Shown here: in pieces, positions 23,971-62,574 of the stretch | Numbering within the stretch: the first letter of the stretch is position 1 | Layout: each line of letters starts with the position of its first letter | Program-made: the position numbers and the translations under genes | Notes under the pieces: model-generated | The model's input: the letters and a program-made list of their open reading frames with translations, nothing else | Databases searched by the model: none | Told to the model about the DNA's origin: nothing | From: Loktanella salsilacus | GTDB taxonomy: Bacteria > Pseudomonadota > Alphaproteobacteria > Rhodobacterales > Rhodobacteraceae | Assembly (NCBI RefSeq): GCF_900114485.1 | Contig: NZ_FOTF01000005.1 | Location: 62,001 to 126,000, forward strand | Length of the DNA: 64,000 nt | Reading direction: 5' to 3'

Positions 23971-24030
23971 CCCCTTCTTCTGGTCAAAAATATCTCGGGG
24001 GGACGGCGCAGCCGGGGGGGCTGGCCCCCC
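23971..24030 (+). repeat. Dispersed structured repeat, copy A
   Basis: Begins CCCCTTCTTCTGGTCAAAAA and continues TATCTCGGGG. Hairpin 1 is CGGC-GCA-GCCG and hairpin 2 is GGGGGG-CTGG-CCCCCC. It lies between the divergent uracil-DNA glycosylase and pyrB genes, in the plus orientation. Confidence 0.8.
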
Positions 24031-24076
24031 ATCCCGCGCCCGCCTATAACCACCGCCATCAAGAAGGAGAGCCATC

Positions 24077-25027
24077 ATGTCATTCCGCGCACGCCACCTG
24101 CTGGGCATCGAACATCTGGCCCCAGACGAGATCACAACCCTGATTGATCTGGCCGATACCTACGCCACCGACAACCGCGCCGGCAAAACCCACCGCGACG
24201 TGCTGGCGGGCATGACCCAGATCAACATGTTCTTCGAAAACTCCACCCGCACCCAAGCCAGCTTTGAACTTGCTGGCAAAAAGCTGGGCGCGGATGTGAT
24301 GAACATGGCGATGCAGTCCAGCAGCGTCAAAAAGGGCGAAACCCTGATCGACACGGCCCTGACCCTGAACGCCATGCACCCCGACCTGCTGGTTGTGCGG
24401 CATCCGTCCTCTGGCGCGGTGGATCTGCTGGCGCAAAAGGTGAATGGGGCGGTGCTGAATGCAGGCGACGGCCGCCACGAACACCCCACGCAGGCCCTGC
24501 TTGACGGCCTCACCATCCGCCGCGCCAAAGGGCGCCTGCACCGCCTGTCCATTGCGATCTGCGGCGACATCGCCCATTCCCGCGTCGCCCGGTCCAACAT
24601 CATGCTGCTCGGCAAAATGGAAAACCGCGTCCGCCTGATCGCCCCGCCGACCCTGATGCCCGCCGGCATCAGTGAATTCGGGGTAGAGGTGTTCGATGAT
24701 ATGGAAAAGGGTCTGCAGGACGTCGACGTCGTGATGATGCTCCGCCTGCAAAAGGAACGCATGGACGGCGGCTTTATCCCGTCAGAGCGGGAATATTTCC
24801 ACCGCTACGGCCTTGATGCCGCCAAACTGGCCCGCGCCAAGCCGGACGCCATCGTCATGCACCCCGGCCCAATGAACCGCGGCGTTGAAATTGACGGCAC
24901 CATCGCCGACGACATCAACCGCTCTGTCATTCAAACGCAGGTGGAAATGGGCGTCGCCGTGCGCATGGCCGCGATGGACCTGCTGGCCCGCAACCTGCGC
25001 GCCGCCCGCGCAGAAGCCGCCGCCTGA
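24077..25027 (+). CDS. pyrB: Aspartate carbamoyltransferase catalytic subunit
   Basis: Makes N-carbamoyl-aspartate, the committed step of pyrimidine synthesis. The carbamoyl-phosphate signature STRTQASFE is at residues 57-65, and [18 protein letters not shown] and MLRLQKERM (aspartate loop) are in place. Length 316 is typical. The AAGGAGAG ribosome site is strong. It opens an operon with a small membrane-anchored protein, a dihydroorotase-like protein and plsY. Because the dihydroorotase partner lacks metal ligands, the ATCase is probably of the class A type, in which a non-catalytic DHO-like chain forms a dodecamer with PyrB. Confidence 0.95.
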
Positions 25028-25088
25028 TCCGGGAACCAGTCCCGCCCCTGCGCGGTTGCCCTCTTACACGACAAACGGAGCTTGCCGC

Positions 25089-25610
25089 ATGACCCTGACC
25101 ATCCCCGCGAACGACCACGGCCTGATCCGCGTCTTCAAAGTCACGGACCCCCTCCCCGAAGGCCTCTCTGATCGCACGCCAGAGGCGCTCTTGGCGCTCT
25201 TCGGCACCGATACCCTTGATCCGACCTATATCGACGTCGTTGACACCCGCGATCTGTCGGGGCTGACCCTGCTCGACTACCTGAACCAAGGCTATGACAT
25301 CCCGCCAGAGGCTGCTGTCGATCCGGCCCTGCGCGATTTGCATGGCATCGCCGTCCTGATCATGTCCCGCGCCAGCGCGGGCCGCGACGTGACCCTAACC
25401 CTTGCACCGCAGGTCACCCACGTCACCACGACGGGCGCGCCCGCCCGCCTGACCGCACCCGCCGCACCGCTGACATCAGACGCCGCGACCGGCACCGTGA
25501 CCGGCAGCAAAGCGCCGCCCAGTAACGCCGCCATGTCGGGCCGCGTCGCCACCATCGCGCTGCTGGTCCTTTTTGCCCTTGTCGCCCTGATGATCTGGGT
25601 GGCCAGCTAA
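25089..25610 (+). CDS. Conserved unknown protein in the pyr operon, C-terminal membrane anchor
   Basis: A 173-residue protein. The start at 25089 has CGGAGC eight bases upstream; the open frame extends back into pyrB but those codons are out of phase with it. The N-terminal 100 residues form a soluble domain (VFKVTDPLPEGLSDRTPEAL, DPTYIDVVDTRDLSGLTLLD). A threonine/alanine-rich linker follows, and one transmembrane helix (about 152-171, VATIALLVLFALVALMIWV) ends the protein. I do not recognise a named domain. Its position between pyrB and pyrC looks conserved in Rhodobacteraceae as I remember it. It could tether the pyrimidine enzymes to the membrane, but that is inference. Confidence 0.8.
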   Translation: MTLTIPANDHGLIRVFKVTDPLPEGLSDRTPEALLALFGTDTLDPTYIDVVDTRDLSGLTLLDYLNQGYDIPPEAAVDPALRDLHGIAVLIMSRASAGRDVTLTLAPQVTHVTTTGAPARLTAPAAPLTSDAATGTVTGSKAPPSNAAMSGRVATIALLVLFALVALMIWVAS

Positions 25611-25697
25611 CCACATTCCCCGAAACATGCGGCAAAGATTGACCCTGCTGCCCGCGCTCCCTACACCTTGCCCGACCGCCGCAAGACGCAGGACCGC

Positions 25698-26993
25698 ATG
25701 ACAACCCTACATTTTATAAACGCCCGCCTGATCGACCCGGTCGCACTGACCGACGATGTCGGCACCTTGACCGTGCAGGACGGCCTGATCACGGCCCTGA
25801 ACGCCGATGCCCCAGCGGGGGCCACTGTGATTGATTGCGACGGCGCGTGCCTCGCCCCCGGCATTATCGACATCGGCGTCAAAGTCTCTGAACCGGGCGA
25901 GCGGCACAAGGAATCCTTCCGCTCTGCTGGCCGCGCCGCAGCCGCTGGCGGCGTTACCACCATCGTCACCCGCCCCGACACCGCTCCCCCCATCGACACG
26001 CCAGAGGCGCTGGAGTTCGTCCGCCGCCGGGCCGAAGTCGAGGCCTGCGTCAACGTTCTGCCCATGGCGACCCTGACAAAGGGCCGCGAAGGCCGAGAGA
26101 TGACAGAGATCGGCTTCCTGCTCGACGCAGGCGCTGTCGCTTTCACCGATGGCGATCACGTCGTCACGGATACCAAAGTCCTCTCCCGCGCCCTGACCTA
26201 TGCCCGCAGCCTTGGCGCATTGGTCATCGGCCACCCCCAAGACCCGGGCCTGTCTGCCGGGGCCTGCGTCACCAGCGGCAAATTCGCATCGCTGCGCGGG
26301 TTGCCTGCCGTGTCGCCCATGGCGGAACGCATGGGCCTTGACCGGGATATCGCCCTGCTGGAAATGACCGGCGCGCGCTATCATGCCGACCAGATCACCA
26401 CCGCCCGCGCCCTGCCCGCGCTGGAACGAGCCAAGCGGAACGGCCTGAAAATCACCGCTGGCATCAGCATCCACCACCTGACGCTGAACGACATGGATGT
26501 CGCCGACTACCGCACCTTCTTTAAACTGACTCCGCCACTGCGGTCAGAGGATGACCGCCAAGCCGTCATCAACGCACTGGCCGAGGGTCTGATCGACATC
26601 GTCTGCTCTATGCACACGCCGCAGGACGAGGAATCCAAACGCCTACCGTTTGAACACGCCGCCGCTGGCGCTGTCGGCCTGCAAACTTTACTCCCCGCCG
26701 CGCTGCGTTTGGTGCACGCGGGCCAGATCACCCTGCCGCGCCTGTTTCGCGCCCTCACGCTGAACCCGGCGCACCTGCTGAACCTGCCCGCAGGCCGCCT
26801 GACGCCGGGTACCCCCGCCGATCTGGTGCTCTTCGACCCCGATGCACCTTTCGTGCTGGACCGCGCCACACTTCTGTCAAAATCCAAGAATACCCCGTTC
26901 GACGGCGCCCGCCTGCAAGGGCGCGTGATCGGTACATGGGTCGGGGGCACCTGTGTCGCTGGCACCCACGTTCAAGGAGGCTTTGATGCCTGA
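25698..26993 (+). CDS. pyrC: Dihydroorotase-like protein lacking metal ligands (pseudo-dihydroorotase)
   Basis: Overall the sequence is a type I dihydroorotase (amidohydrolase fold, 431 residues): an N-terminal beta domain, CLAPGIIDIG, GGVTTIVTRPDT, NTPFDGARLQGRV. The metal-binding HxH that should follow PGxxD is Gly60-Val61-Lys62 (DIGVKVSEPG). The DHAPH signature reads SMHTPQ, so the enzyme cannot bind the usual binuclear zinc. In Pseudomonas a similar inactive DHO is needed structurally for aspartate carbamoyltransferase; this is the likely role here, with an active dihydroorotase encoded elsewhere. Start MTTLHFINARL with AGGA upstream. The 3' end holds the plsY ribosome site and overlaps plsY by eight bases. 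Confidence 0.88.
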   Translation: MTTLHFINARLIDPVALTDDVGTLTVQDGLITALNADAPAGATVIDCDGACLAPGIIDIGVKVSEPGERHKESFRSAGRAAAAGGVTTIVTRPDTAPPIDTPEALEFVRRRAEVEACVNVLPMATLTKGREGREMTEIGFLLDAGAVAFTDGDHVVTDTKVLSRALTYARSLGALVIGHPQDPGLSAGACVTSGKFASLRGLPAVSPMAERMGLDRDIALLEMTGARYHADQITTARALPALERAKRNGLKITAGISIHHLTLNDMDVADYRTFFKLTPPLRSEDDRQAVINALAEGLIDIVCSMHTPQDEESKRLPFEHAAAGAVGLQTLLPAALRLVHAGQITLPRLFRALTLNPAHLLNLPAGRLTPGTPADLVLFDPDAPFVLDRATLLSKSKNTPFDGARLQGRVIGTWVGGTCVAGTHVQGGFDA

Positions 26994-27597
26994 TATTTCC
27001 TCACCCGTCGCCATGCTGCTGCTTTGGGGCGCTATCGGTTACCTGCTCGGCTCTATCCCGACGGGCGTCATCCTCGCCCGCGTCATGGGCCTCGGCGATC
27101 TACGCACAATCGGCTCTGGCAATATCGGGGCCACGAATGTGCTGCGCACCGGCAACAAACGCGCCGCTGCCCTGACCCTGCTGGGTGACGCGCTGAAAGG
27201 GGCCATCGCTGTGCTGCTCGCCAGCGCCTTCGCCTCTTCCTATGACGCCGTGCAACTGGCCGCGCTGGCCGCCCTGATCGGCCACTGCTTCCCTGTCTGG
27301 CTTGGCTTTCGCGGCGGCAAAGGTGTGGCAACCTTCCTTGGCATCATGCTGGCGCTCGTGCCACTGGCAGGCCTGATCGCCTGCGCCATCTGGGGACTGA
27401 CCGCCAAATTCGGCAAAATCTCGTCCCTCGCGGCCTTGCTTGCCGCAGGCTGGACGCCCATCGTGCTGGTGCTGATCGGCCGCGGCGACCTGTTCGCACT
27501 CGCCACCGTGCTCGCGATCCTGATCTACCTGCGCCACTGGGCCAATATCGCCCGCCTGCGCAAAGGGACCGAGCCTAAGATCGGCGCGAAAAGCTAA
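26986..27597 (+). CDS. plsY: Glycerol-3-phosphate acyltransferase PlsY
   Basis: Acylates glycerol-3-phosphate from acyl-phosphate, the first membrane step of phospholipid synthesis. It has 203 residues and about five transmembrane helices. The PlsY motifs are present: GSIPTGVILAR (motif 1 region), GSGNIGATNVLR, and FRGGKGVATFLG (motif 2, phosphate binding). The start at 26986 has a near-perfect AAGGAGG inside the last codons of pyrC; an earlier in-frame start at 26953 lacks one. The gene overlaps its convergent neighbour by four bases at the 3' end. Confidence 0.95.
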   Translation: MPDISSPVAMLLLWGAIGYLLGSIPTGVILARVMGLGDLRTIGSGNIGATNVLRTGNKRAAALTLLGDALKGAIAVLLASAFASSYDAVQLAALAALIGHCFPVWLGFRGGKGVATFLGIMLALVPLAGLIACAIWGLTAKFGKISSLAALLAAGWTPIVLVLIGRGDLFALATVLAILIYLRHWANIARLRKGTEPKIGAKS

Positions 27598-27836
27598 ATA
27601 ATCCTGCGCCCGCGCCAGAGCAGGCGCAGCGCTGCCCCCAGCAGCCACAGCGGCCAGCCCAGCACCATGCGTAGGTTCACAAGCCGCAGCGCCAGCGCAA
27701 AGGGCAGCACCACAGCCAGCCCCGCCAACGCGCCCAGCACAAAAGCGCCGCCCGCCTTGACTGGCAGCCCCAGCGCCAAAGGTCCCGCAATCAACGCGAC
27801 CGGCACAATCCGCTTGAACAAAAATCCTGCAATCAT
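27594..27836 (-). CDS. Small hypothetical membrane protein
   Basis: An 80-residue protein starting MIAGFLFKRIVPVAL, with GAAGGTGG upstream. Three hydrophobic stretches (about 8-25, 29-47 and 53-70) suggest two or three helices, followed by a basic tail LLWRGRRII. I do not recognise a family. The stop codon overlaps the plsY stop region by four bases in convergent orientation. An in-frame upstream start at 27881 exists without a ribosome site. It may be co-transcribed with gshA upstream, although repeat copy B lies between them. Confidence 0.6.
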   Translation of the reverse strand: MIAGFLFKRIVPVALIAGPLALGLPVKAGGAFVLGALAGLAVVLPFALALRLVNLRMVLGWPLWLLGAALRLLWRGRRII

Positions 27837-27893
27837 CCCGCCACCTTCACCGCAATTGCGGCAAAATAAAGGCGCGCCCAAACCGGCACGCCT

Positions 27894-27949
27894 CCTCTTC
27901 TTCTGGTCTAAAATACCTCGGGGGAGGCGTAGCCGGGGGCAGAGCCCCC
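27894..27949 (+). repeat. Dispersed structured repeat, copy B
   Basis: CCTCTTCTTCTGGTCTAAAA then TACCTCGGGGG. Hairpin 1 is shortened to GGC-GTA-GCC and hairpin 2 is GGGGGC-AGA-GCCCCC. It lies between the gshA stop and the small membrane-protein start, antisense to both. Confidence 0.8.
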
Positions 27950-27959
27950 AGCCAACCTC

Positions 27960-29330
27960 TCAATAAGAATATTCCGGATAGATCTTGCTCAAATCACCGC
28001 CCCACTCACCGTGGTACTTGGCAAGCAGCTCATCCGCAGGCACTTGGCCCGTCTCGACGCTTTCCTGCAGCGCATTCAGGAAATGTGTCTCATCCGCAAC
28101 CAAACCGCCTGCACCGGGCTTGGCCCGCGCCTTCAATCCGCCATGGGCGATATCCACACAGGCCTTCGCCAGCTGGTGCATATCGATGCCGTCCACCTTG
28201 GCCTGCAACCCGTCCACGCTCGACGCCACCAGCAGCGCCTGACGCTGCTCTGCGGTCCAGTCCTTGCACAGGTCCCATGCCGCATCCAGCGCGCCTTGGT
28301 CATAAGTCAGACCAACCCAGAACGCCGGCAGCGCACACAGACGTCGCCATGGGCCACCGTCGGCACCGCGCATCTCGATGAATTGCTTGATCCGCGCTTC
28401 GGGGAAGACCGTCGTCAGATGGTCGGCCCAATCGCTCAGCAATGGCTTCTCGCCCGGCAGTGCAGGCAGTTCGCCCTTCAGAAAATCGCGGAACGACTGG
28501 CCCAGCGCGTCGATATACTTACCGTCGCGGTACACAAAATACATCGGCACATCGAGGACCCAGTCCACCCAACGCTCGAACCCCATGCCGTCCTCGAATA
28601 CCCAAGGCAGCATCCCGGTGCGCGAGTCGTCAAGGCCCCGCCAGACGCGCGAACGCCAAGACTTGTGGCCGTTCGGCTTGCCCTCAAAGAAAGGCGAATT
28701 CGCGAATAGCGCCGTCGCGACAGGCTGCAGGGCAATCGCCACGCGCAGCTTTTGCACCATGTCGACTTCAGAGCTGAAATCCAGGTTCACCTGAACCGTG
28801 CAGGTCCGCCGCATCATCTGCGTGCCATGCGTGCCAACGGTGCCCATATAGGCGTCCATCAGTTTGTAACGCCCCTTGGGCATCAGCGGCATCTGCTCGT
28901 GCGTCCATTCAGGCGCTGCGCCCAGACCGATAAAGCCTGCGCCCATCTCGTCCGCGATCTCTTTGACCTGCGCCAGATGGTGGTTCACTTCATCGCAGGT
29001 CTGGTGGATCGTCTCAAGCGGCGCGCCTGACAGCTCTAGCTGACCGCCCGGCTCTAGCGACACATTGGCGCCGTCCTTGGTCAGGCCAATGATCTTGCCG
29101 CCTTCTTCAACGCGGTCCCAGCCGAATCGCTGCTCCAGCCCCTCCAGCATCGCCTTGATGCCGACGTCGCCCTCATAGGGCAGCGGCATGTTGGTCGCTT
29201 TGATATAGCCGAATTTCTCGTGTTCTGTGCCGATACGCCATTGATCCTTGGGCTTACAGCCTTTGGACAGCATCTCTGCCAGTTGATCATGGCTTTCGAT
29301 GGGGCCGCCACCGGTTTGGGGAATGGACAT
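27960..29330 (-). CDS. gshA: Glutamate-cysteine ligase (plant/alphaproteobacterial type)
   Basis: Makes gamma-glutamylcysteine, the first step of glutathione synthesis. The 456-residue GCS2-type sequence opens with the conserved DQWRIGTEHEKFG (residues 29-41). It continues with LEPGGQLELSGAPL, MRRTCTVQVNLDFSSE (metal and glutamate site) and NGHKSWRSRVW, as in plant GSH1 and alphaproteobacterial enzymes. It lies downstream of a 172-residue membrane protein and rsmE on the same strand, with gaps of 60 and 81 bases, so an operon is likely. The plant-type enzymes are redox-regulated through cysteines; I cannot tell whether this one is. Confidence 0.95.
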   Translation of the reverse strand: MSIPQTGGGPIESHDQLAEMLSKGCKPKDQWRIGTEHEKFGYIKATNMPLPYEGDVGIKAMLEGLEQRFGWDRVEEGGKIIGLTKDGANVSLEPGGQLELSGAPLETIHQTCDEVNHHLAQVKEIADEMGAGFIGLGAAPEWTHEQMPLMPKGRYKLMDAYMGTVGTHGTQMMRRTCTVQVNLDFSSEVDMVQKLRVAIALQPVATALFANSPFFEGKPNGHKSWRSRVWRGLDDSRTGMLPWVFEDGMGFERWVDWVLDVPMYFVYRDGKYIDALGQSFRDFLKGELPALPGEKPLLSDWADHLTTVFPEARIKQFIEMRGADGGPWRRLCALPAFWVGLTYDQGALDAAWDLCKDWTAEQRQALLVASSVDGLQAKVDGIDMHQLAKACVDIAHGGLKARAKPGAGGLVADETHFLNALQESVETGQVPADELLAKYHGEWGGDLSKIYPEYSY

Positions 29331-29390
29331 AAGGGCAGCCTTTTCATCGCGCGGGTTTCACAGAGTATCTGGCGTGACCCACCCCTTGCG

Positions 29391-29909
29391 TCAATGCAAG
29401 AGCGTTCGTTCCTTTTCCCACACGGTCACCCGCGCACCGGGTGTGCGTTCCAGCACATCTAGGACCGAACCGCTGCGAATCCCCGGCAAAGCGGCGAAGA
29501 CATCGAACAACGTTTCAGCCCCTTCCGCATTCACTGGAATAGCCAGCGCCTGCCCGCCCACGCCCGTCAGCACCCAATGCGGGCGCGGCATGGCGGCGGG
29601 TTCCAGCTCTAACCGGGTCAGATCCGCGACATCCATCGCGCCGCCCGTCAGCGGCCCCATGTAGACCAAGCGCCGCTCGTCCAGCATGACAATTCCCGGC
29701 CCCTGCCCATCTTGGCGGAACCGTGCACGCTGCACGCCAGCCGCTGCGATCGCGGCCGCCAGCAGGACCAGAACGATGCCGATCCACTTGACCAGACCAA
29801 AGCTGCCCAGCGCCCACCACAGGCCCAATGCTGCCAAAGCCCCTGCAAATAAGACCTCTCGCCAGCGCCACAGGGTCGCCCGCGCCTGCGGCCTCAAAAA
29901 CTCAGCCAT
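29391..29909 (-). CDS. Membrane protein of unknown function between rsmE and gshA
   Basis: A 172-residue protein starting MAEFLRPQARATLWRWREV, with AAGGG about eight bases upstream. Two transmembrane helices (about 21-35 and 41-58) are followed by a soluble beta-rich domain (MLDERRLVYMGPLTGGAMDV, WVLTGVGGQALAIPVNAEG). The layout, two helices then a cytosolic PH-like domain, resembles small bacterial PH-domain membrane proteins, but I do not recognise a named family. Linkage with gshA and rsmE appears to recur in Rhodobacteraceae as I remember it. Confidence 0.72.
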   Translation of the reverse strand: MAEFLRPQARATLWRWREVLFAGALAALGLWWALGSFGLVKWIGIVLVLLAAAIAAAGVQRARFRQDGQGPGIVMLDERRLVYMGPLTGGAMDVADLTRLELEPAAMPRPHWVLTGVGGQALAIPVNAEGAETLFDVFAALPGIRSGSVLDVLERTPGARVTVWEKERTLLH

Positions 29910-29990
29910 GCGCTTGCCCTTCTGTTTCACAGTGCCGCCCGCGTCTGCGGCCTTCTGATTTTTCGCCCAGTGATCGGCTTTGCAGCAGCC

Positions 29991-30707
29991 TCACTGCCAG
30001 TCCCCCAGCGTCGTCTGCCACAGCGTCAATGCAGCGACCGCCGCCGTATCGGCGCGCAAAATCCGCGGCCCCAGACTGATCGCCTGCGCCTGCGGCATCG
30101 CATGCAGCCGCGCGCGTTCACTGTCCGAAAAACCGCCCTCTGGTCCGATCAGCACGGCCCAAGGTCCGGGCGTCAGGCTGGCCAGATTCGCGGCCGTGCC
30201 AACCAAGCCTTCGTCGCAGAACAAAATCCGCCGATCGCCCCAACCATCCAGCACAGCTGACAATTTCGTGACCTCGGCCACGTCGGGCACATAGGTGCCG
30301 CCGCATTGCTCTGCCGCCTCGACCGCATGGGCCTGCAACTTGTCCTGACGCGCCTTTTCATTCGTGAAATCTGTCACAACGGGCAAAATACGCGCCACGC
30401 CCAGTTCCACCGCCTTTTCGACGATGAAATCGGTGCGCACCTTTTTGATCGGGGCAAAGATCAGCCACAGGTCCGGCGGCGCAATCTGCGGCGCGGTTTG
30501 TGCCTGCACCAGCAGGACGCCGCCGCGCTTGGACCCTTCGATGACTTGCGCATCCCACGCACCGTCACGCCCGTTGATCAGCGTCAGCACATCACCAACG
30601 GACAGCCGCATCACGGCAAAAAGATACAGCGCACGGTCCTTATCCAGAGGAACCGTTTGCCCTTCCCCCAAGGGGTGCTCTACAAAAAGGCGAATTTTTG
30701 ATGCCAT
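29991..30707 (-). CDS. rsmE: 16S rRNA (uracil-1498-N3)-methyltransferase RsmE
   Basis: Methylates U1498 of 16S rRNA. A SPOUT-fold protein of 238 residues with an N-terminal PUA-like domain (KIRLFVEHPLGEGQTV). The knot is formed by KVRTDFIVEKAVELGVARI, VLIGPEGGFSDSE (AdoMet loop) and SLGPRILRADTAAVAALTL, which are diagnostic. The start at 30707 (MASKIRLFVEH) is the family N-terminus; the open frame runs on into ubiA on the other strand. There is no clear ribosome site, so the mRNA may be leaderless. The divergent ubiA start lies only 12 bases away. Confidence 0.94.
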   Translation of the reverse strand: MASKIRLFVEHPLGEGQTVPLDKDRALYLFAVMRLSVGDVLTLINGRDGAWDAQVIEGSKRGGVLLVQAQTAPQIAPPDLWLIFAPIKKVRTDFIVEKAVELGVARILPVVTDFTNEKARQDKLQAHAVEAAEQCGGTYVPDVAEVTKLSAVLDGWGDRRILFCDEGLVGTAANLASLTPGPWAVLIGPEGGFSDSERARLHAMPQAQAISLGPRILRADTAAVAALTLWQTTLGDWQ

Positions 30708-30718
30708 GGGCAGAACAT

Positions 30719-31696: not shown

Positions 31697-31769
31697 TTGC
31701 GTCCAGCCGCCCCTGCGCTTAGACCACTTTCAGATCACGTCCAGACCAAGTCCAAGGATTCCACGACCC

Positions 31770-33656: not shown

Positions 33657-33672
33657 CAGTCAGGACCGCCCC

Positions 33673-33987: not shown

Positions 33988-34110
33988 TCTGCGGGGTGAC
34001 GTGGCGACACGTCCCCTAGTATGGAACCACAAGACACTTAAATGGTTTAGTCCCCATAGACGCCCTGCGCCTTACCGGCCGCGGGGCGTGGCATTTTGAA
34101 AGGACACCCC

Positions 34111-34782: not shown

Positions 34783-34801
34783 GTTTGGCGATTCAAGATG
34801 G

Positions 34802-34827
34802 AGGGGGTCGCAGATTTGCGGCCCCCT
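34802..34827 (+). terminator. Terminator after the DJ-1/PfpI gene
   Basis: An 11-bp stem AGGGGGTCGCA / TGCGGCCCCCT (one G-T pair) with a GATT loop, followed by TTTTT. Confidence 0.92.
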
Positions 34828-34854
34828 TTTTCGTGTCCTGTCGTTATGTTTCGT

Positions 34855-34929
34855 CTCGGCTACGCCGAGCCGATCCATTGGGGGCTTTGCCCCCAAACCC
34901 CCAAGGTATTTTCAACCAGAAGAAGGGGG
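34855..34929 (-). repeat. Dispersed structured repeat, copy C (hairpin order swapped)
   Basis: Read on the minus strand: CCCCCTTCTTCTGGTTGAAA, ATACCTTGGGGG, then GGGGGC-AAA-GCCCCC, then CTCGGC-GTA-GCCGAG. The same two hairpins as the other copies are present but in the opposite order. It lies between convergent genes (DJ-1-like and the CDF transporter). Confidence 0.8.
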
Positions 34930-53183: not shown

Positions 53184-53296
53184 TGTCAACGCACAAAGGC
53201 AGATGGGACGGCGGGCGGGGCGTCTTGCCCCAAAGGGGCAACAGCGCCGCAGCGCCGACCCTTTACCATGCCCCGAAAATCCGTCACGCCACCCCC

Positions 53297-54322: not shown

Positions 54323-54357
54323 CCCAGCCTTAACCTTTTACTGTGCAACCTACGGCC

Positions 54358-55740: not shown

Positions 55741-55825
55741 CGCAGCGCTTTGGCACATGCGGGGCGTGACAGCCCCGCTGCAATCGGCTAGGACATGACG
55801 AAATAGGCAGACAAGGACGCATCCC

Positions 55826-55960
55826 ATGGCAGACCACAAGCACGGCGAAATGGACATCACTGTTCAGGAAAAAACCTTTGACAGCTTCATCTGGTTCGTA
55901 TCGCGCGGCACCATCGGAATAATCGTTTTCCTGATCTTCCTCGCTCTCGTCGGCGCCTAA
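55826..55960 (+). CDS. aa3-type cytochrome c oxidase subunit IV (44 residues)
   Basis: A 44-residue protein: polar N-terminus MADHKHGEMDITVQEKTFDS followed by one transmembrane helix (about 27-43, GTIGIIVFLIFLALVG). This is the small subunit IV (PF07835) of the Paracoccus/Rhodobacter aa3 oxidase, a single helix at the edge of the complex. AAGGA lies ten bases upstream of the ATG. It is too short for most gene finders. Its stop codon overlaps the start of the following lipoprotein gene by one base (TAATG). The catalytic oxidase genes are not in this window. Confidence 0.88.
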   Translation: MADHKHGEMDITVQEKTFDSFIWFVSRGTIGIIVFLIFLALVGA

Positions 55961-56574
55961 TGATCTCGCGCCGCGCGCTGGTCTTCGGCCTGCCATTGGC
56001 AGCCGCCGGGGCCTGTTCTGCGCCGCAAACGTCTTCCCCGCCCGCCATGATCGCGTCAAAACGATTCGCAGGGCTGGGTCCGCGCGTGCTGACACTTTAT
56101 ACGATGCGCAGCGTATCCACGGGCAGCGGCGCGCATAGCAGCCTGCTGATCGACGCGCCCAGCCAGCGGGTCATCTTCGATCCCGCGGGCAGCTTTCGCC
56201 ATTCCACGATCGCGGAACGCAACGACGTCCTGTTTGGTGTCACGCCAGAGGTAGAGGCCTACTACGTCTCCTACCACGCGAGAGAGACCTACTACGTCAT
56301 CGGCCAAACCGTGCAAGTCAGCGACGCGGTCGCTGAACAGGCCCTTGATCTGGCCCTGACCAACGGGCCTGTGGCGCAATCCTTCTGCACCAATTCCACC
56401 GCCCGCCTGATGCGCCAATTGCCGGGCTTTAGCAGCCTGCCGCAAACGTTCTTTCCCAACACGCTGGCGAACCGCTTTCGCAAACTGCCCGGTGTTACAT
56501 CGCGCGAATGGCGCGAAAACGACCCCGATAACAAGGCCCTCGCCCTCGCTGAAATCGAAATGCAGCTCCGCTAG
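55960..56574 (+). CDS. Putative lipoprotein, possible permuted papain-like hydrolase
   Basis: A 204-residue protein with paired arginines (MISRRALVFGLPLAAAGACS). The AAAGAC region is a possible lipobox with Cys19. The mature part has TGSGAHSSLLIDAPSQRVIF (His near residue 56) and, later, FCTNSTARLMRQLPGF (Cys near 143). A His early and a Cys late is the order found in circularly permuted NlpC/P60 (YiiX-like) hydrolases, so a thiol hydrolase is possible, but I could not confirm it. The start codon overlaps the upstream coxIV stop by one base, implying translational coupling. Confidence 0.65.
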   Translation: MISRRALVFGLPLAAAGACSAPQTSSPPAMIASKRFAGLGPRVLTLYTMRSVSTGSGAHSSLLIDAPSQRVIFDPAGSFRHSTIAERNDVLFGVTPEVEAYYVSYHARETYYVIGQTVQVSDAVAEQALDLALTNGPVAQSFCTNSTARLMRQLPGFSSLPQTFFPNTLANRFRKLPGVTSREWRENDPDNKALALAEIEMQLR

Positions 56575-56595
56575 ATTAGCTCATCTGCGCCCGCC

Positions 56596-56931
56596 CTACA
56601 GCAGCTGCGCCACAGCCAAACCTGTATAAAGCGCGCCGAACCCCGCAAGGATCGCCCAGATCACCTGCTTGGTCCACAGCCCCACAGCCAGCGCCACCGC
56701 CGCCGCAATCAGACGCACCGCATCCGGCTGCCCGCCTGTCGCCGCAGGCCAAAGCACCAGCGGCGCGACCAGCCCTGGCAAGACGGCAACAGGCGTATAA
56801 CGCAGCAACCGAAGCACAATCGGCGGCATATCGCGGTTGCCAATGAGCCCCAAAAACGAAAACCGGATCAGGAAAGTGCCAATCGCCAGCGCCCCGATAA
56901 TGCCCCAAATCTGTAGCGCGGAATAACTCAT
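56596..56931 (-). CDS. azlD: AzlD-family branched-chain amino acid exporter small subunit
   Basis: 111 residues, about four transmembrane helices. MSYSALQIWGIIGALAIGTF, then RFSFLGLIGNRDMPPIVLRL and LRYTPVAVLPGLVAPLVLWP, the AzlD pattern. The start overlaps the azlC stop by four bases (ATGA). Together they should export branched-chain or other amino acids. The frame extends upstream inside azlC without meaning. Confidence 0.9.
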   Translation of the reverse strand: MSYSALQIWGIIGALAIGTFLIRFSFLGLIGNRDMPPIVLRLLRYTPVAVLPGLVAPLVLWPAATGGQPDAVRLIAAAVALAVGLWTKQVIWAILAGFGALYTGLAVAQLL

Positions 56932-57623
56932 ACCCGGTCCTCCACCAACACACCGACCGCCATGGCGCAGGCCGCCGCGATCAACAGGCCAAAGCCCGAC
57001 GGCAACCCGCTCAGCGCCAGCGCCACCACGACCGAGGTCGCCGCCGCCGCCAAATGCGCCGACGTGCGCAACATCGGCGCGACCATCGCCAGAAACGTGA
57101 TCGGCAGGGCGAAATCCAACGCCGCAGCCTCTGGGATCGTCGCCCCGACCAAGACGCCCACCGCCGTCATCGCGCACCAGACCGGCGTGATCGGCGTCGC
57201 CACCCCGAAAAAGAACGCGACCTTCTGCCGCAATGTCAGATCCGGCTCTTCTTCATAGGCCTTCACGCTCGCCAAATAGGTCTGATCAAACAACAAATAC
57301 GCCACGCAGGCCCGCTGCCACAGCGGTGCGGCCCCGATATGCGGCACCAAGGCCGCCGAATACATCGCCATCCGCAGGTTCACCGCCAGCGCCGCCAACA
57401 GCACAAAGGCAATGCCCGCTTGATCCACCATCATCTGCAACGCCGCAAACTGCGACGCCCCCGCGATCACCAAGACCGTGAACCCCATCGCCTGCCCCAG
57501 CGTCAGCCCTGCATCCGTGGCGGCCACGCCAAACAGCAGCGAAAACGGCACGACCACGATCACGAATGGGGCACCCGCGCGCAGGCCGCGCAGATAGACG
57601 GATTTCACGGTGGCAGCGGTCAT
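56928..57623 (-). CDS. azlC: AzlC-family branched-chain amino acid exporter large subunit
   Basis: 231 residues with six or seven helices. APFVIVVVPFSLLFGVAATD, GASQFAALQMM and LRMAMYSAALVPHI are conserved AzlC segments, as is LLFDQTYLASVKAYE. It exports amino acids (BrnF/YgaZ-like) with AzlD. No Lrp-type regulator lies next to it. It is divergent from fdhD with 60 bases between, so the promoters overlap or are very close. Confidence 0.93.
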   Translation of the reverse strand: MTAATVKSVYLRGLRAGAPFVIVVVPFSLLFGVAATDAGLTLGQAMGFTVLVIAGASQFAALQMMVDQAGIAFVLLAALAVNLRMAMYSAALVPHIGAAPLWQRACVAYLLFDQTYLASVKAYEEEPDLTLRQKVAFFFGVATPITPVWCAMTAVGVLVGATIPEAAALDFALPITFLAMVAPMLRTSAHLAAAATSVVVALALSGLPSGFGLLIAAACAMAVGVLVEDRV

Positions 57624-57683
57624 AGGTTTGGCCTAGTTTTATGTGATCGCGCCCTGCCTACCCCCGCGTCCAAGGATTGACAA

Positions 57684-58562
57684 TTGGCCACCCTGACAGA
57701 CACGCCTTATCTGATTGCCCCGCAGCCTAGCCTGCCGCGCCTGACCCGCGCCGTCACCGGCACCGACCAAACCGGGGCCAGCGTTGACCTGCGCGTTGTC
57801 GAAGAACGCCCGCTGACGATCTACCTCAACAGCCGCGAAATCGTCACCGCCATGACCATCGGCGACTACCCGACCTATTTGGCACTGGGCTTTTTGCGCA
57901 ACCAAGGCATGTTGTCCGCCACCGACGTGGTCACCGCCGTCGACTATGACGAAGAGCTCGAGGTCGTCGTCGTCCGCACAAAGGTCGAGACGAACCACGA
58001 GGCAAAGCTGCAAAAGAAAACCCGCACCTCGGGCTGCGCCGTCGGCACCGTTTTTGGCGATATGATGGAAGGTCTCGAAAACCTTGAGCTGCCGCAAACG
58101 CCGCTCAAAACCTCCGACCTTTACGCCCTCGCCGCCACCATCAGCCGCACCCCCAGCCTCTACCTCGAAGCCGGCGCAATCCACGGCACGGTCCTATGCC
58201 AAGGCAACACGCCGCTAGTCTATATGGAAGACGTCGGCCGCCATAACGCCGTCGACAAAATCGCAGGCTGGATGTTCGCGGAAGGCATCAGTCCGGACGA
58301 CAAAATCCTCTACACGACAGGCCGCCTGACCTCAGAAATGGTGATCAAAACCGCGCTGATGGGCATCCCCACCCTCGTCTCCCGCTCCGGCTTCACCGCT
58401 TGGGGTGTTGAAATCGCGACCCAAGTCGGCCTGACCCTGATTGGCCGTATGAAAGGCCAGCGCTTCACCTGCCTTGCCGGCGATCACCGCCTCATCCGCG
58501 ACGCCGACCCCGCCGCCGTCCCGGACGAGCCGCGCAAACAATCCCGCAAGGCTGCAGAATGA
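57684..58562 (+). CDS. fdhD: Formate dehydrogenase accessory sulfurtransferase FdhD
   Basis: Transfers sulfur to the molybdenum cofactor of formate dehydrogenase. The sequence (292 residues) has RPLTIYLNSREIVTAMTIGD, the active loop TSGCAVGTVF with a single Cys where enteric FdhD has CxxC, YMEDVGRHNAVDKIAGW and GRLTSEMVIKTALMGIP, all family marks. The start is TTG at 57684, with AAGGA about eight bases upstream; no ATG fits the N-terminus. It opens a molybdenum-cofactor block (mobA, mobB, moeA fusion), separated from it by two tandem copies of the dispersed repeat. Confidence 0.93.
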   Translation: MATLTDTPYLIAPQPSLPRLTRAVTGTDQTGASVDLRVVEERPLTIYLNSREIVTAMTIGDYPTYLALGFLRNQGMLSATDVVTAVDYDEELEVVVVRTKVETNHEAKLQKKTRTSGCAVGTVFGDMMEGLENLELPQTPLKTSDLYALAATISRTPSLYLEAGAIHGTVLCQGNTPLVYMEDVGRHNAVDKIAGWMFAEGISPDDKILYTTGRLTSEMVIKTALMGIPTLVSRSGFTAWGVEIATQVGLTLIGRMKGQRFTCLAGDHRLIRDADPAAVPDEPRKQSRKAAE

Positions 58563-58590
58563 CCTTGCCCGCCACAGCACAACAAATCAC

Positions 58591-58650
58591 CCCCCTTCTT
58601 CTCGTCCCAAATATCCCGGAGGGCGACGCAGTCGCGGGGGCAGCGCCCCC
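58591..58650 (+). repeat. Dispersed structured repeat, copy D
   Basis: CCCCCTTCTTCTCGTCCCAA then ATATCCCGGAGG. Hairpin 1 is GCGAC-GCA-GTCGC and hairpin 2 is GGGGGC-AGC-GCCCCC. First of two head-to-tail copies between fdhD and mobA, 88 bp before copy E. Confidence 0.85.
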
Positions 58651-58678
58651 TGCACCCCTGTCAGCAGATCACCACGCT

Positions 58679-58738
58679 CCCCCTTCTTCTGGTCAAAAAT
58701 ACCGCGGGGGGCGGCGCAGCCGCGGGGGCAGCGCCCCC
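58679..58738 (+). repeat. Dispersed structured repeat, copy E
   Basis: CCCCCTTCTTCTGGTCAAAA then ATACCGCGGGGG. Hairpin 1 is GCGGC-GCA-GCCGC and hairpin 2 is GGGGGC-AGC-GCCCCC. Compared with copy D, the central hairpin 1 pair changes from A-T to G-C on both sides, a compensatory change. Confidence 0.85.
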
Positions 58739-58767
58739 TGCAAAATCAACGCAAAAGGCACCACCCG

Positions 58768-59349
58768 ATGATGCAACCCTTCGGCCTCATTCTGATGGGC
58801 GGGCAAGCCACGCGCATGGGCGGCGGCGACAAGGGCCTGCTGCCCTTGGGTGACAGCACAATCCTGTCTCACGTCTTGGACCGCCTCACCCCGCAAGTTG
58901 ACCGCACCGCGCTGAACGCCAACGGCGATCCCGCCCGCCTTAAACACCTCAATCTGCCGATCCTGCCAGACAGCATCCCCGATCACCCCGGCCCGCTTGC
59001 GGGCACGCTTGCAGGTCTCGACTGGGCCGCCGCCCTTGGCGCGACCCACATCGTCACCGCCGCCGCTGATACGCCGTTCTTGCCCTGCGATCTGGTCCCG
59101 CAACTACTGCTTGCCGGCGGGGACGCCGGCTTCGCCCTCGCCGCTTCCCCGTCGGGGCGCCAGCCGACCTTCGGCCTCTGGCCCGTCACCCTGCGCGATC
59201 CCCTCCGCCAGGCGCTCTATGACGGGCTGCGGAAAATCGTCCAGTTCACCCGCGCCCACGGCGCAGGTACGGCGGAATTCCCGGACGACACCGCCTTCTT
59301 CAATGTGAACACACCCGAAGACCTCCTGACCGCAAAGGCCATGCTATGA
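58768..59349 (+). CDS. mobA: Molybdenum cofactor guanylyltransferase MobA
   Basis: Adds GMP to the molybdenum cofactor, giving the bis-MGD or MGD form used by DMSO-reductase-family enzymes such as formate dehydrogenase. 193 residues. The nucleotide loop LILMGGQATRMGGGDKGLLPL is at the N-terminus (residues 6-26), with HPGPLAGTLAGLDWAA, AADTPFLPCDL (Mg-binding Asp) and FFNVNTPEDL. The start at 58768 (MMQPFGLI) follows AAAAGG by ten bases. The frame opens much earlier, through repeat D/E, which produces a false long N-terminal extension. Overlaps mobB by four bases. Confidence 0.94.
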   Translation: MMQPFGLILMGGQATRMGGGDKGLLPLGDSTILSHVLDRLTPQVDRTALNANGDPARLKHLNLPILPDSIPDHPGPLAGTLAGLDWAAALGATHIVTAAADTPFLPCDLVPQLLLAGGDAGFALAASPSGRQPTFGLWPVTLRDPLRQALYDGLRKIVQFTRAHGAGTAEFPDDTAFFNVNTPEDLLTAKAML

Positions 59350-59849
59350 ACATCTTCGGCGTCACCGGCTGGAAAAACGCGGGCAAAACCGGCCTGATGG
59401 AACGGCTCGTGACCGACATCACCGCGCGCGGCTTCACTGTCTCCACCCTCAAACATGCCCACCACAGCTTTGACGTCGACCACCCCGGCAAGGACAGCCA
59501 CCGCCACCGCACAGCGGGCGCGTCCCAAGTGCTGCTCTCCTCCGGCACCCGCTGGGCGTTGATGAGCGAGCTGCGCGGCGCCCCCGAGCCCAGCCTGACC
59601 GACCTGCTGACCAAACTCGACCCCGTCGATCTGATCCTGATCGAGGGCTACAAACGCGACACCCACCCCAAGGTTGAGGCGTATCGCGCCGAACCCGGCA
59701 ACCCTTTGATTGCCACGCATGACCCCACGATCAAGGCCATCGCCACCGATACACCCCTGACAACCGACCGCCCGCAATTCGACCTTGATGACACCGCAGC
59801 CATCGCCGACTTCATCCTCGGCCACCTCGGCCTGCCGCTGCGTAAATGA
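59346..59849 (+). CDS. mobB: Molybdopterin-guanine dinucleotide biosynthesis protein MobB
   Basis: 167-residue P-loop GTPase that assists MobA. Walker A is GWKNAGKTGLMERL (residues 8-21), with ILIEGYKRDTHPKVE as the DxxG-like/effector block and STLKHAHHSFDVDHPGKDSH containing the conserved histidines. The start ATG overlaps the mobA stop (ATGA), and the end overlaps the next gene by four bases. mobA, mobB and the moeA fusion are thus translationally coupled. Confidence 0.93.
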   Translation: MNIFGVTGWKNAGKTGLMERLVTDITARGFTVSTLKHAHHSFDVDHPGKDSHRHRTAGASQVLLSSGTRWALMSELRGAPEPSLTDLLTKLDPVDLILIEGYKRDTHPKVEAYRAEPGNPLIATHDPTIKAIATDTPLTTDRPQFDLDDTAAIADFILGHLGLPLRK

Positions 59850-61942
59850 GCTTTGATACCGTCATCATGGTCGACTGGTCCGGCGGCAATGATCGCGGTG
59901 CCACGCCGAAAAAAGACGCGATCTGGACCTGCATCGCCCGCGCTGGACAGGCAGAGCCGCCCCTTTACCACCGCAACCGCCAGATCGCGGAAACCTATCT
60001 GCAAGGCACCCTGACAGCAGAGCAAACCGCAGGCCGCCGCACCCTTGCCGCCTTCGATCTGTGCTTCGCCTACCCCGCTGGCTTTGCCGAAAAACTGACC
60101 GGATCGGACGACCCCCTCGCCCTGTGGGACTGGTTCGCCGCCCGCGTCACTGACACCCCGGGGTTCAACAACCGCTTTGACCTCGCAGGTCAAATCAACA
60201 CACAATTTCCCGGCACAGGCCCCTTTTGGGGCAATGGACGACCCAATCACGACGTCCCGCACCTGCCGCGCAAGGGCCGCGATCGCACGGGTCACGACCT
60301 GCCCGAACATCGCGCCACTGACCTTGCCGCCCCCGGTGCCTTCTCGCCCTGGCAGCTCTCTGGCGCGGGGGCCGTCGGCGGCCAAGTCATCATGGGCCTG
60401 CCCATGCTATCACGCCTGCGCCACCATTTCGGCGCGGCCCTCTCAGTCTGGCCATTCGAGGCCCCCACCGCCGATATCGTGCTTGCCGAATCCTACTTCT
60501 CCCTGCTCCCCGCCTCCTACCTCACGGGCCACGCCATCCGCGACGCAGCGCAGGTCGCGCTTTACGCCCGCGCGCTTTCCGCCCTCACACCGGACCAGTG
60601 GCAAACCGTCCTCGACGTCGTGCCAACGGCCGAAGGCTGGGTGCTCGGCCTCGGCCACCAAGACTTGTTGAAAGGCGCTGCCATGCCCGACCTGACCCCG
60701 CCGCCCCTGCGCAACGACTGCTTCGCCATGCCGCAGGGCGCGCATTGGACCCCCGTGGACGATGCCCTCGCCCACCTGCGCGCCCAGCTGTCCCCCATCA
60801 CAGCAACCGAAACCATCCCCCTTGCCGCAGCCGCCGGCCGCATCCTCGCCGCCCCCGTCATCGCCGCCCGCAGCCACCCGCCGCACGCCAATGCCGCCGT
60901 CGATGGCTACGCCTTTGCGGGGCCGCTTCCGGATGGCCCGCGCACCCTGCCCCTGCATCCCGGCCGCGCCGCCGCAGGCGATCCATTCAACGGCACCGTC
61001 CCTGACGGCCACGCCCTGCGTATCCTGACCGGCGCGAATATCCCGGACGGCACCGACACCGTTGTCCTGCAAGAGGACACCGCCGCCAACGACACCCACA
61101 TCGCCCTGCACGGCCCGCTCAAACAGCGCGCCAACGCCCGCAAGGCAGGCGAGGACATGACAGCAGGCAGCGACGTTCTGCCCGCCCAGCGCCGCCTCAC
61201 CCCCGCTGACCTCGCCACCCTCGCCGCCTGCGGCACCGGGCAGGTCACGGTCCATAAACGCCTGCGCGTCGGCGTACTGTCCACCGGGGATGAACTGCGC
61301 GCCCCCGGCGAGCACGCCGCAGACGGCCAGATCTTCGACGCCAACCGCGCCATGCTGCTCGCCGATATTGAGCGCTGGGGCCACGCGGCGATCGACCTCG
61401 GTATCGCCCCGGACGACCGCCCTAAACTGCGCACCATCCTCGACGATGCCGCCGATCGCTGCGACGCAATCCTCACCTCTGGCGGCGCATCGGCTGGGGA
61501 CGAGGATCACATGTCCGCCCTACTGCAAGGCACCGGCACCCTCGCCCTGTGGCGCATCGCGATGAAACCGGGCCGCCCCCTCGCCCTTGGCCTGTGGCAA
61601 AACACGCCCGTCTTCGGCCTGCCGGGCAACCCCGTCGCCGCCCAAGTCTGCGCCCTCGTCTTCGCCCACCCGGCCCTGGCCCACCTCGCGGGCGCACAGT
61701 GGCCAACCCCGCAAGGCTTCTCCCTGCCCGCCGCTTTCAGCAAATCGAAAAAGGCGGGCCGCCGCGAATACCTCCGCGCCCGCATCACAGACGGCGCAGC
61801 AGAGGTTTTCCCCTCCGAAGGCTCCGGCCGCGTCTCCGGCCTGTCATGGGCCACCGGCCTTGTGGTGTTGCCCGACGCAGCCGCGCAAATCACCCCAGGT
61901 ACGCCAGTGACCTATATTCCCTTCGCAAGCTTCGATCTGTGA
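59846..61942 (+). CDS. moeA: MoeA molybdopterin molybdenumtransferase fused to an N-terminal RNase H-like domain
   Basis: 698 residues. Residues ~280-698 are a full MoeA that inserts molybdate into adenylylated molybdopterin: RSHPPHANAAVDGYAF, RILTGANIPDGTDTVVLQED, GVLSTGDELRAPG, TSGGASAGDEDHM and FGLPGNPVAAQVC are intact. Residues 1-279 form an added domain that begins FDTVIMVDWSGGNDRGATPK (Asp10) and contains LAAFDLCFAYPAGFA (Asp71), resembling the first two acidic strands of DUF429-type RNase H-like proteins. An in-frame ATG at 60683 has GAAAGG seven bases upstream and would yield free MoeA. Overlaps mobB and the GNAT gene by four bases each. Confidence 0.88.
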   Translation: MSFDTVIMVDWSGGNDRGATPKKDAIWTCIARAGQAEPPLYHRNRQIAETYLQGTLTAEQTAGRRTLAAFDLCFAYPAGFAEKLTGSDDPLALWDWFAARVTDTPGFNNRFDLAGQINTQFPGTGPFWGNGRPNHDVPHLPRKGRDRTGHDLPEHRATDLAAPGAFSPWQLSGAGAVGGQVIMGLPMLSRLRHHFGAALSVWPFEAPTADIVLAESYFSLLPASYLTGHAIRDAAQVALYARALSALTPDQWQTVLDVVPTAEGWVLGLGHQDLLKGAAMPDLTPPPLRNDCFAMPQGAHWTPVDDALAHLRAQLSPITATETIPLAAAAGRILAAPVIAARSHPPHANAAVDGYAFAGPLPDGPRTLPLHPGRAAAGDPFNGTVPDGHALRILTGANIPDGTDTVVLQEDTAANDTHIALHGPLKQRANARKAGEDMTAGSDVLPAQRRLTPADLATLAACGTGQVTVHKRLRVGVLSTGDELRAPGEHAADGQIFDANRAMLLADIERWGHAAIDLGIAPDDRPKLRTILDDAADRCDAILTSGGASAGDEDHMSALLQGTGTLALWRIAMKPGRPLALGLWQNTPVFGLPGNPVAAQVCALVFAHPALAHLAGAQWPTPQGFSLPAAFSKSKKAGRREYLRARITDGAAEVFPSEGSGRVSGLSWATGLVVLPDAAAQITPGTPVTYIPFASFDL

Positions 61943-62517
61943 TCATCGCGCCGGGCATCCCTGCAGGCCAAACCGAACAAGCCGCCGCACTCTATTGGGA
62001 CGCCTTCGGCCCCAAACTCGGCCGCGTCCTCGGCCCCGCGCCCCGCGCCCTGCACTTTATTGCGGGCGTCATCGACCCCAGCCACGTCATCAGCGCCACG
62101 AATGAGGCAGGCCACCTCATCGGTATTGCCGGCTTCAAAACCCACCGCGGAGCCTTCGTCGGGGGCACGCTCCGCGATCTGGCGAGGCACTACGGGTGGC
62201 CCGGCGCGCTGTGGCGCAGCGCCCTGCTTTCGCTGCTCTCGCGCGACACAGAAAACTTGAACTTCCTCACCGACGGCCTCGCCGTCGCGGCCCCTGCCCG
62301 CAGTCAGGGCGTCGGCACCGCGCTCTTGGACGCCCTGTCAATCGAGGCGCGCAGCCGCAACTATCCCGCCCTGCGCCTTGACGTCGTCGACACCAACCCG
62401 CGCGCAAGGGCGCTCTATGCCCGCCTCGGCTTCATCGAAACCAAGACCACGCAAATCGGCCCCCTGCGTCACATCTTCCACTTCCGCCGCACTATCACGA
62501 TGGTCCGCCCAGTCTGA
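61939..62517 (+). CDS. GNAT-family N-acetyltransferase
   Basis: 192 residues from a GTG start at 61939 that overlaps the moeA stop in GTGA; an open frame continues far upstream inside moeA but is not real. The acetyl-CoA loop is ARSQGVGTALLDALSIEA (about 115-132), preceded by DGLAVAAP and followed by LRLDVVDTNPRARALYARLG (about 139-158), the typical GNAT motif A/B order. The substrate is unknown. Being coupled to the molybdenum-cofactor genes suggests, but does not show, a link. It is the last gene of the operon; repeat copy F follows. Confidence 0.87.
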   Translation: MIIAPGIPAGQTEQAAALYWDAFGPKLGRVLGPAPRALHFIAGVIDPSHVISATNEAGHLIGIAGFKTHRGAFVGGTLRDLARHYGWPGALWRSALLSLLSRDTENLNFLTDGLAVAAPARSQGVGTALLDALSIEARSRNYPALRLDVVDTNPRARALYARLGFIETKTTQIGPLRHIFHFRRTITMVRPV

Positions 62518-62526
62518 GCGTGCCGA

Positions 62527-62574
62527 CCCCTTCTTCTGGTCAAAAATACCTCGGGGCTTGGGGCAGCGCCCCAA
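62527..62574 (+). repeat. Dispersed structured repeat, copy F (lacks hairpin 1)
   Basis: CCCCTTCTTCTGGTCAAAAA then TACCTCGGGGC. Only hairpin 2 is present, as TTGGGGC-AGC-GCCCCAA. It lies between convergent GNAT and mbfA genes. Confidence 0.8.

Follow-up and report, generated by a model that had tools for sequence, protein, structure and literature searches.

The stretch analysed here, called the window, comprises 64,000 nucleotides of Loktanella salsilacus (assembly GCF_900114485.1, contig NZ_FOTF01000005.1, positions 62,001 to 126,000 of the forward strand), and holds six copies of a structured intergenic repeat in which a nearly constant arm is followed by GC-rich hairpins. We put the chances at about even that this repeat serves as the cognate site for a family of small RNA-like loci, whose short guide would address the first part of the arm, box A, in dispersed sites to which it is complementary. 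Judged from the sequences, the matching of guides and sites looks like an undescribed guide-and-target network. Guides match box A within genomes, the two covary between lineages and between the loci of one genome, old copies are under constraint, and the main family of sites is neutral with respect to strand. The earlier note on this DNA had offered a small RNA as one possible identity of the repeat; small RNA-like loci are indeed involved, but the relation is reversed, since the repeat is the site complementary to separate loci and is not shown to be an RNA gene itself.

The repeat consists of box A (11 nt, here CTTCTTCTGGT), three variable spacer bases, box B (AAATAYC), the dinucleotide YC and GC-rich hairpins. 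The last three bases of box A, the triplet, are nearly fixed inside a family and differ across lineages. Some genomes (genomes and loci are referred to by G and L numbers) have two linked families: among the places listed, G002 combines GTC with AAATATC and TGG with AAATACC, and G003 mostly TGC with ACC and TTT with ATC. The hairpin modules are interchangeable, being either a mini form, CGCCGGAGGC, or a G-run (X1), an optional hairpin, a second G-run (X2), a short loop and a C-run (X3); in G575 a single core is joined to four different 3' modules. The paired variation of the hairpin stems, proposed from the window copies, recurs in the listed copies of the genome. In many copies, including rare GGAGG forms, X1 equals X2 and the reverse complement of X3; this was read from the 234 copies that a crude length parsing resolved among 305 from five sources, the others being 34 mini and 37 unparsed. 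This three-way agreement exceeds the need of an X2:X3 hairpin, where X1 need not equal X2. A variant with a long first hairpin (inner stem and GGTTCAAG-like loop) is present at L042, L043, L044, L059 and L060 of the own genome, that of L. salsilacus, and at L172 and L208 of other genera.

The small RNA-like loci, with a predicted length of about 70 nt, comprise a TTAACC-like motif, a 29-nt scaffold hairpin, an 11-nt linker, which we call the guide, and a terminator-like hairpin, often flanked by sites on one side or on both. Three Loktanella genomes have, in one spacer, head-to-head repeat pairs that enclose, at exactly 133 bp, a conserved element whose motif, GCGGTACAGG-loop-CCGATGACCGC, was found in 100 of 149 family genomes, some of them lacking a detected repeat. 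In many loci the linker and the box A of the genome concerned are reverse complements of each other, as a rule with one G.U pair, and the own genome has at least four such loci (L055, L303, L302 and L304). At each stem position of the scaffold, 68-74 of the 74 loci are paired, and three of the pairs show compensatory changes. The internal loop hardly varies, and most of these loci have GGRR in the apical loop. Three sequences folded to the end of the terminator-like hairpin all beat their shuffles (z of −5.1, −3.8 and −6.0), and one of these folds is composed of a hairpin, an unpaired linker of exactly 11 nt and a stem. Many loci lie in a few conserved neighbourhoods, the genes being named by eye from their translations: GST/thiolase-like and acyl-CoA dehydrogenase-like, acyl-CoA synthetase-like, between imuB-like and dnaE2-like, and lpd-like. 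At L274, L276, L116, L287 and L293, TTAACC starts 28 nt ahead of the scaffold hairpin, as counted by eye. This motif resembles half a CtrA site, so that the loci may be CtrA controlled. No Rfam family matched the repeat or the scaffold in the window and 34 loci at the thresholds used, and the titles and abstracts of the searched literature, with most subscription papers outside its scope, held no description of the repeat, the scaffold or the pairing.

A full complement of the guide (11/11, Watson-Crick and GU pairs) lies downstream in 39 of 58 loci, compared with 15 of 1138 trials with the guides of other loci. When plasmid loci are included, a cognate site with box B lies within 250 nt of 61 of 74 loci, 57 of them pairing at all 11 positions, versus 43/2179 for swapped guides, in a count that treats orthologous loci as separate. 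In 17 of 19 cases the lineage triplet is complementary to the guide at all three bases, where 20,000 permutations gave 2.3 on average and 9 at most; these cases were compiled by hand and are non-independent, four of them having one guide, and G002 and G003 entered by the matching family only. Predictions were also fixed before fetching 20 further loci from 10 genomes, and the triplet matched in G002 (GTC), G003 (TTT), G020, G027, G032, G082 and G084. In the 572 kb sampled from the own genome, 11/11 sites with box B (at most one mismatch) number 77 for the L055 guide, 7 for L303 and 3 for L302, the loci's own sites included; the L303 family has six exact copies, five of which are away from the locus. 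Three guides with one site family each were found in G027.

Guides and sites differ in concert between close relatives as well: guide AAACAGAGAGG occurs here together with sites nnTCTCTGTTT, and guide AAACAGCGCGG in the congeneric G006 with nnTCGCTGTTT. This matched difference (site D) includes the locus itself and one shared spacer, where the orientation is apparently flipped. When four Watson-Crick pairs were demanded at the 5' end of the guide, 175 of 216 dispersed sites from five genomes matched a guide of their own genome, as opposed to 23 with a guide from other genera. Should the match prove functional, a single small RNA would address many fixed chromosomal sites by base complementarity, and several guide/site families would coexist in a genome.

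The bipartite motif and its parallel change in place could also be expected of a site for a sequence-specific DNA-binding protein that shifts its specificity by lineage, the guide merely following in order to keep a local stem. We regard this as the least probable of the alternatives weighed here: several box A families with similar box B can be present in one genome, matching different loci, and the match is found at loci without a local partner. Indeed, the downstream stretch read at L302, L105, L305, L319 and L066 contains no complementary box A, so the match there is not a local stem.

Several results weigh against a guide-and-site relation, together with four points taken up below (location on plasmids, possible common descent, strand bias in one family and terminator-like copies). 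Counting every failed family or genome, the triplet match is 17/25. The pre-set predictions failed for the own minor family CGT and for G002 TGG, G003 TGC, G005 GTT (2 loci) and G053 TGG, and guide and triplet further disagreed in G064, G086 and G485, part of the loci of these genomes being read. The L304 guide has only a 7-bp match to its adjacent site, which has one dispersed copy, and the GCTGTTT family of G006 matches the site D guide over just 8 consecutive pairs. For 10 G006 sites ending in TTGC there is no guide among the G006 loci read. With four Watson-Crick pairs demanded, G027 reaches only 6/23 own-guide matches, because its fourth pair is a wobble; once wobble is admitted, many Loktanella sites are matched by guides from other genera too, and the contrast there is weak. 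As the loci were found by a motif search, part of the scaffold uniformity arises by construction, and in 84-nt folds of the 74 loci the linker is partly free, with only the first four guide bases mostly unpaired (0.60-0.74). A TnpB-type effector as general partner was rejected, PF07282 scoring over the cut-off in 3 of 33 genomes and in 1 of 20 carriers, with weak matches below it in four more.

The dispersed sites are themselves strongly constrained. Genome-wide (4.13 Mb, 76 contigs), 83 copies have at most 2 mismatches, while the same search with a reversed control pattern gave 0 matches. Both orientations, as seen in the window, occur throughout, with 44 copies on one strand and 39 on the other. 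In the stretches around own-genome copies, 90 copies are listed at up to 3 mismatches. Allowing up to 5, four genomes each show 0-2% variation at positions 2-8, 10, 11, 15, 16, 18 and 19, and across them positions 1, 13 and 14 vary by 9-57%. Variation at position 12 is 19-21% in the three Loktanella genomes and absent from G575, and only some genomes vary at positions 20 and 22-24. Few copies have 6-7 mismatches (10 beside 86 in the own genome), decayed copies distant from good ones falling outside the sampled stretches.

Comparison of orthologous spacers indicates how these copies change. A copy is also present here for 20 of 41 G006 copies and 16 of 28 G382 copies, in the same orientation in 34 of 36, a count that takes in 41 of the roughly 44 copies of G006 but just 28 of the roughly 80 of G382. 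It is fairer than our first orthology counts, which were biased because the relatives' stretches had been picked around their own copies. The median identity of reciprocal-best proteins in the sampled loci, own against relatives, is 76.5%. The 34 same-orientation pairs (27 distinct own sites, two related species) have 98% identity at the constrained positions and 38% in the upstream flank, and in the three-base spacer they agree no better than permuted pairs (58 vs 56.2 of 102). Position 20 differs in 24 of these pairs and position 22 in 31: both changed alike in 22 pairs, position 22 alone did so in 7 and neither in 3, and 2 behave otherwise. Homogenisation of the whole core would drag the spacer along, so we take positions 20 and 22 to have changed in parallel and in place, tracking something in trans. 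Exchange limited to the 3' part is possible, yet unlikely where the module and the downstream flank are retained (L029, L130). A cross-genus comparison with G027 found few spacers in common.

A relaxed repeat pattern has at least one match in 103 of 295 genomes of the family, with more than 100 copies in two; genomes with a single hit include chance matches, and a pattern with 5 instead of 6 free positions, which serves as a chance baseline only, gave 25/390. The strict TTCTTCT pattern matched 0 of 285 genomes outside the family, a class-wide absence that applies to the TTCTTCT box A family only. The association with Rhodobacteraceae made in the earlier note stands, and the named carriers include, among the matches listed, Loktanella, Roseovarius, Rhodovulum, Paracoccus, Phaeobacter, Leisingera and Thioclava. 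As a side observation, a record titled Enemella evansiae, an actinobacterium (L214), has two GTC-family copies and is possibly a mislabelled or mixed assembly.

Scaffold and linker also occur on plasmids of Phaeobacter, Paracoccus, Pseudosulfitobacter, Leisingera, Cereibacter, Mesorhizobium, Rhizobium, Shinella, Thiothrix and two Legionella species; an Azospirillum match looks like chance. By eye, a cognate site lies beside the locus in Phaeobacter, two Paracoccus, Pseudosulfitobacter, both Legionella and Rhizobium sp. 007, and no adjoining one was seen in Cereibacter, Mesorhizobium, Shinella, Leisingera, Thiothrix and Rhizobium CB3171. The Legionella anisa plasmid has the site ATCACGTC-TTT-AAATATCCCGGGG and a guide starting with GACGTGAT, and in the Rhizobium sp. 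007 plasmid guide AAAGGGTTAGG stands opposite CCTAACCCTTT-TCG-AAATATCC. Scaffold, guide and cognate site are all present at L346 and L350, on gammaproteobacterial conjugative plasmids of Legionella, and L350 has a similar GC module. No exact scaffold match was found in viral contigs, nor any place in phages that covers 80% of the query.

The main rival explanation is a mobile mosaic, like a bacterial interspersed mosaic element (BIME) or a miniature inverted-repeat transposable element (MITE), whose full unit would be an inverted site, a small RNA-like locus and a site, pairs and single sites being derived from it. Guide and box A would then be the arms of one ancestral inverted repeat, and families would be kept uniform by spreading and not by targeting. 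We take this to be rather unlikely, although a good deal of the architecture agrees with it. G575 has nearly identical units, four 3' modules on one core, and one composite pair that occurs three times with a near-identical centre of 11-12 bp. The loci sampled for this count had 25 head-to-head pairs versus 8 tandem and 3 tail-to-tail, and G177 has 14 pairs 8-20 bp apart among 66 copies. The small RNA-like locus lies between inverted cores 111-135 bp apart in several genera, and loci ride on plasmids. As the elements spread as copies, part of the guide match may be common descent.

Other observations argue against mobility as the whole explanation. With regard to a MITE, inverted cores flank several loci, and no recurrent transposase was seen beside the copies: among 1076 flanking proteins, the listed clusters from at least three genomes include neither a transposase nor a recombinase. 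RAYT as mobiliser was rejected, and the RAYT-type gene that the earlier note proposed to look for in carriers failed to appear as a partner, Y1_Tnp having 0 matches in the own genome and occurring in 1 of 30 copy-rich genomes versus 3 of 30 without the repeat. What stands of the REP-like idea (repetitive extragenic palindrome) is a structured intergenic element with many copies, inverted doublets and mosaic units. In addition, 20/41 G006 and 16/28 G382 copies share their intergenic spacer with an own copy, the three spacer bases inside the repeat being saturated with changes while the core is intact and changes in parallel in place, and the loci sit at conserved gene neighbourhoods.

Gene contexts were assigned with a simple gene finder written for this analysis. 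The six window copies had been described as intergenic, and so are 88 of 90 own-genome copies; the other 2 overlap the final codons of a predicted gene, so coding regions are not hit equally. The 88 intergenic copies lie between convergent genes (41) or tandem genes (23 sense, 21 antisense) and rarely between divergent ones (3), and 85 of them touch at least one gene 3' end. For comparison, at these own-genome loci 164 of the intergenic regions of 60 bp or more are tandem, 47 convergent and 74 divergent. The counts for 80 loci from named Rhodobacterales genomes are 37 convergent, 20 tandem sense, 26 antisense, 6 divergent and 10 undetermined, and in G575 they are 17, 13, 9, 2 and 2, respectively. 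All three contexts expected from the window thus occur, but the divergent one is rare, with 11 of 218 when the three sources are pooled (convergent 95, tandem sense 56, antisense 56).

Conventional trans-acting small RNAs, with sites in mRNA 3' ends as their targets for regulation or sponging, would explain the position of the sites at gene 3' ends, and the predicted parts (scaffold, linker and terminator) are like those of a standard small RNA. This alternative appears improbable to us. The main family has no strand preference (tandem sense 56, antisense 56), and therefore none of the orientation that a sense target would have; copies that are only antisense are conserved about as well as sense ones (44/56 perfect vs 98/114, p = 0.18); and box B is under constraint as well. 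One family, CATCATCTTGC in the Loktanella loci, is strand-biased (13 tandem antisense vs 5 sense). No guide for the CATCATCTTGC family of G006 was found among the G006 loci read.

The proximity to gene 3' ends (85/88) would also suit a transcription terminator or a REP-type stabiliser of mRNA 3' ends, at least from the hairpin side. The minus-strand hairpin can lead straight into TATTTTT, and the element itself forms a terminator-like structure at 17 of 95 gene ends so facing. At convergent ends facing the hairpin side a terminator lies outside the element in 2 of 57, versus 26 of 98 element-free ends, and tandem ends facing this side have a terminator in 14 of 38 cases, versus 31 of 293 element-free ends and 4 of 30 sense-facing ones. 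The element may thus terminate in one orientation in part of the cases, as indicated by the 17/95 in-element structures and the rarity of outside terminators at convergent ends, and to this extent the terminator idea of the earlier note is retained. Over the whole spacer, however, canonical terminators at convergent ends are about as frequent with the element (24/114) as without it (26/98). Most copies form no canonical terminator either way, 7 of the 14 tandem terminators (7/38 ends) lie outside the element, and the element leaves less spacer room for other terminators. Termination moreover has no need of a conserved 11-nt box with guide-matching lineage dialects, and we consider this explanation of the repeat very unlikely.

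Our preferred reading, in which the repeat is addressed by the guides of the small RNA-like loci, would amount to an address system that is guided by RNA and probably acts on DNA. The outward signs of RNA guidance are all present at the sequence level: a constant scaffold, a variable guide, guide-matching sites and a fixed adjacent motif. In this mechanism the loci would be transcribed into small RNAs, a conserved protein would read the scaffold and box B, and guide and box A would pair in the cell; no effector protein was found in this analysis. DNA is favoured over mRNA as the presumed target by the strand-blind placement and the like conservation of antisense-only copies. A test of the strand of action by wobble counted 21 G.T and 16 A.C among the pairs, beside 61 other mismatches, and the folding energies of the strands are nearly equal, so that neither strand is favoured. 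As the sites lie at gene 3' ends, the role may concern the boundaries of transcription units, where the system might block or insulate transcription, or organise DNA.

In its most specific form, the proposal would be a new RNA-guided DNA-recognition system, with 29-nt-scaffold RNAs, an 11-nt guide, an AAATAYC adjacent motif, tens of chromosomal sites per guide and a presumed conserved effector, that marks or insulates the ends of transcription units on Rhodobacteraceae chromosomes and occurs on plasmids of Rhizobiaceae, Thiothrix and Legionella. We advance this full version tentatively, as a possibility that we would not bet on. A functional match of guide and site would in any case explain the uniformity and the concerted change of such repeats, and it predicts that a change of the guide abolishes the effect of the sites and that a corresponding change of box A restores it.

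The six copies reported for the window were all recovered. As for the nearly unchanged arm, 5 of the 6 have at most 2 mismatches (0 in 100 shuffles) and the one at 58595 is diverged. The first (23971-24030, plus strand) has box A at 23974-23984, the spacer at 23985-23987 and box B at 23988-23994, followed by GC hairpins; it lies between divergent genes, and the orthologous spacer of G006 lacks a copy. The second (27894-27949, plus) is arranged alike, with box A at 27897-27907, the spacer at 27908-27910, box B at 27911-27917 and GC hairpins, and both flanking predicted genes are antisense to it. The third (34855-34929, minus) has its core from 34925 down to 34905 and starts a few nucleotides past a stop codon, between convergent genes; no copy was found in the G006 regions orthologous to the second or the third. 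The diverged fourth copy (58591-58650, plus; box A CTTCTTCTCGT) lies between tandem genes. The fifth (58679-58738, plus) has a complete core, and the orthologous G006 spacer (L121) contains one copy in the same orientation. The sixth (62527-62574, plus), also with a complete core, begins 12 nt past a stop codon between convergent genes, and in G382 the orthologous spacer (L132) contains a like-oriented copy. In the own genome the repeat is often followed by a palindrome like CCGATTTTTCGCCGAAAAATCGG (window 62575-62601; L012, L014, L018, L021, L041 and L048).

Among known systems, REP/BIME elements with their RAYT transposases, as described in PMC2817692, share with the repeat a high copy number, intergenic location, hairpins, inverted doublets, mosaic units and lineage-specific sequence. 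Relative to those elements, the RAYT gene is missing here in most carriers, box A and box B replace the GTAG/GTGG head with its hairpin, and cognate small RNA-like loci are present. A GTAG/GTGG tetranucleotide followed by a hairpin does not appear in the listed copies, which begin with the box A motif. DNA uptake sequences of Neisseriaceae are likewise genome-wide motifs with lineage dialects, and they are densely distributed through genes; in our case, by contrast, 88 of 90 copies are intergenic, the number is 83 in 4.1 Mb, and the dialect matches an RNA-like locus. The Rhodobacter sphaeroides small RNA StsR (72 nt) is of similar length and also from the Rhodobacterales, and serves as a lead only, likened by length and order.

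On the guide-like strand, a site reads GRGRTATTT-NNR-guide match, that is, with a T-rich motif 5' of the match, and the targets of TnpB and Cas12 have a T-rich motif 5' of the guide match as well. The likeness to OMEGA (the omega-RNA of TnpB) and TldR is one of layout only, consisting of a constant 5' scaffold, a short guide and the T-rich motif 5' of the match. The PF07282 domain model, the one used, had no match in the own genome, G006 or G003. The present system differs from OMEGA and TldR in the 3-nt gap between motif and match, in guides that lie away from a transposon end, in tens of genomic sites, and in a TnpB-type protein found in only 1 of 20 carriers. If the reading is true, it would amount to an RNA-addressed marking of the genome unlike the systems tested here.

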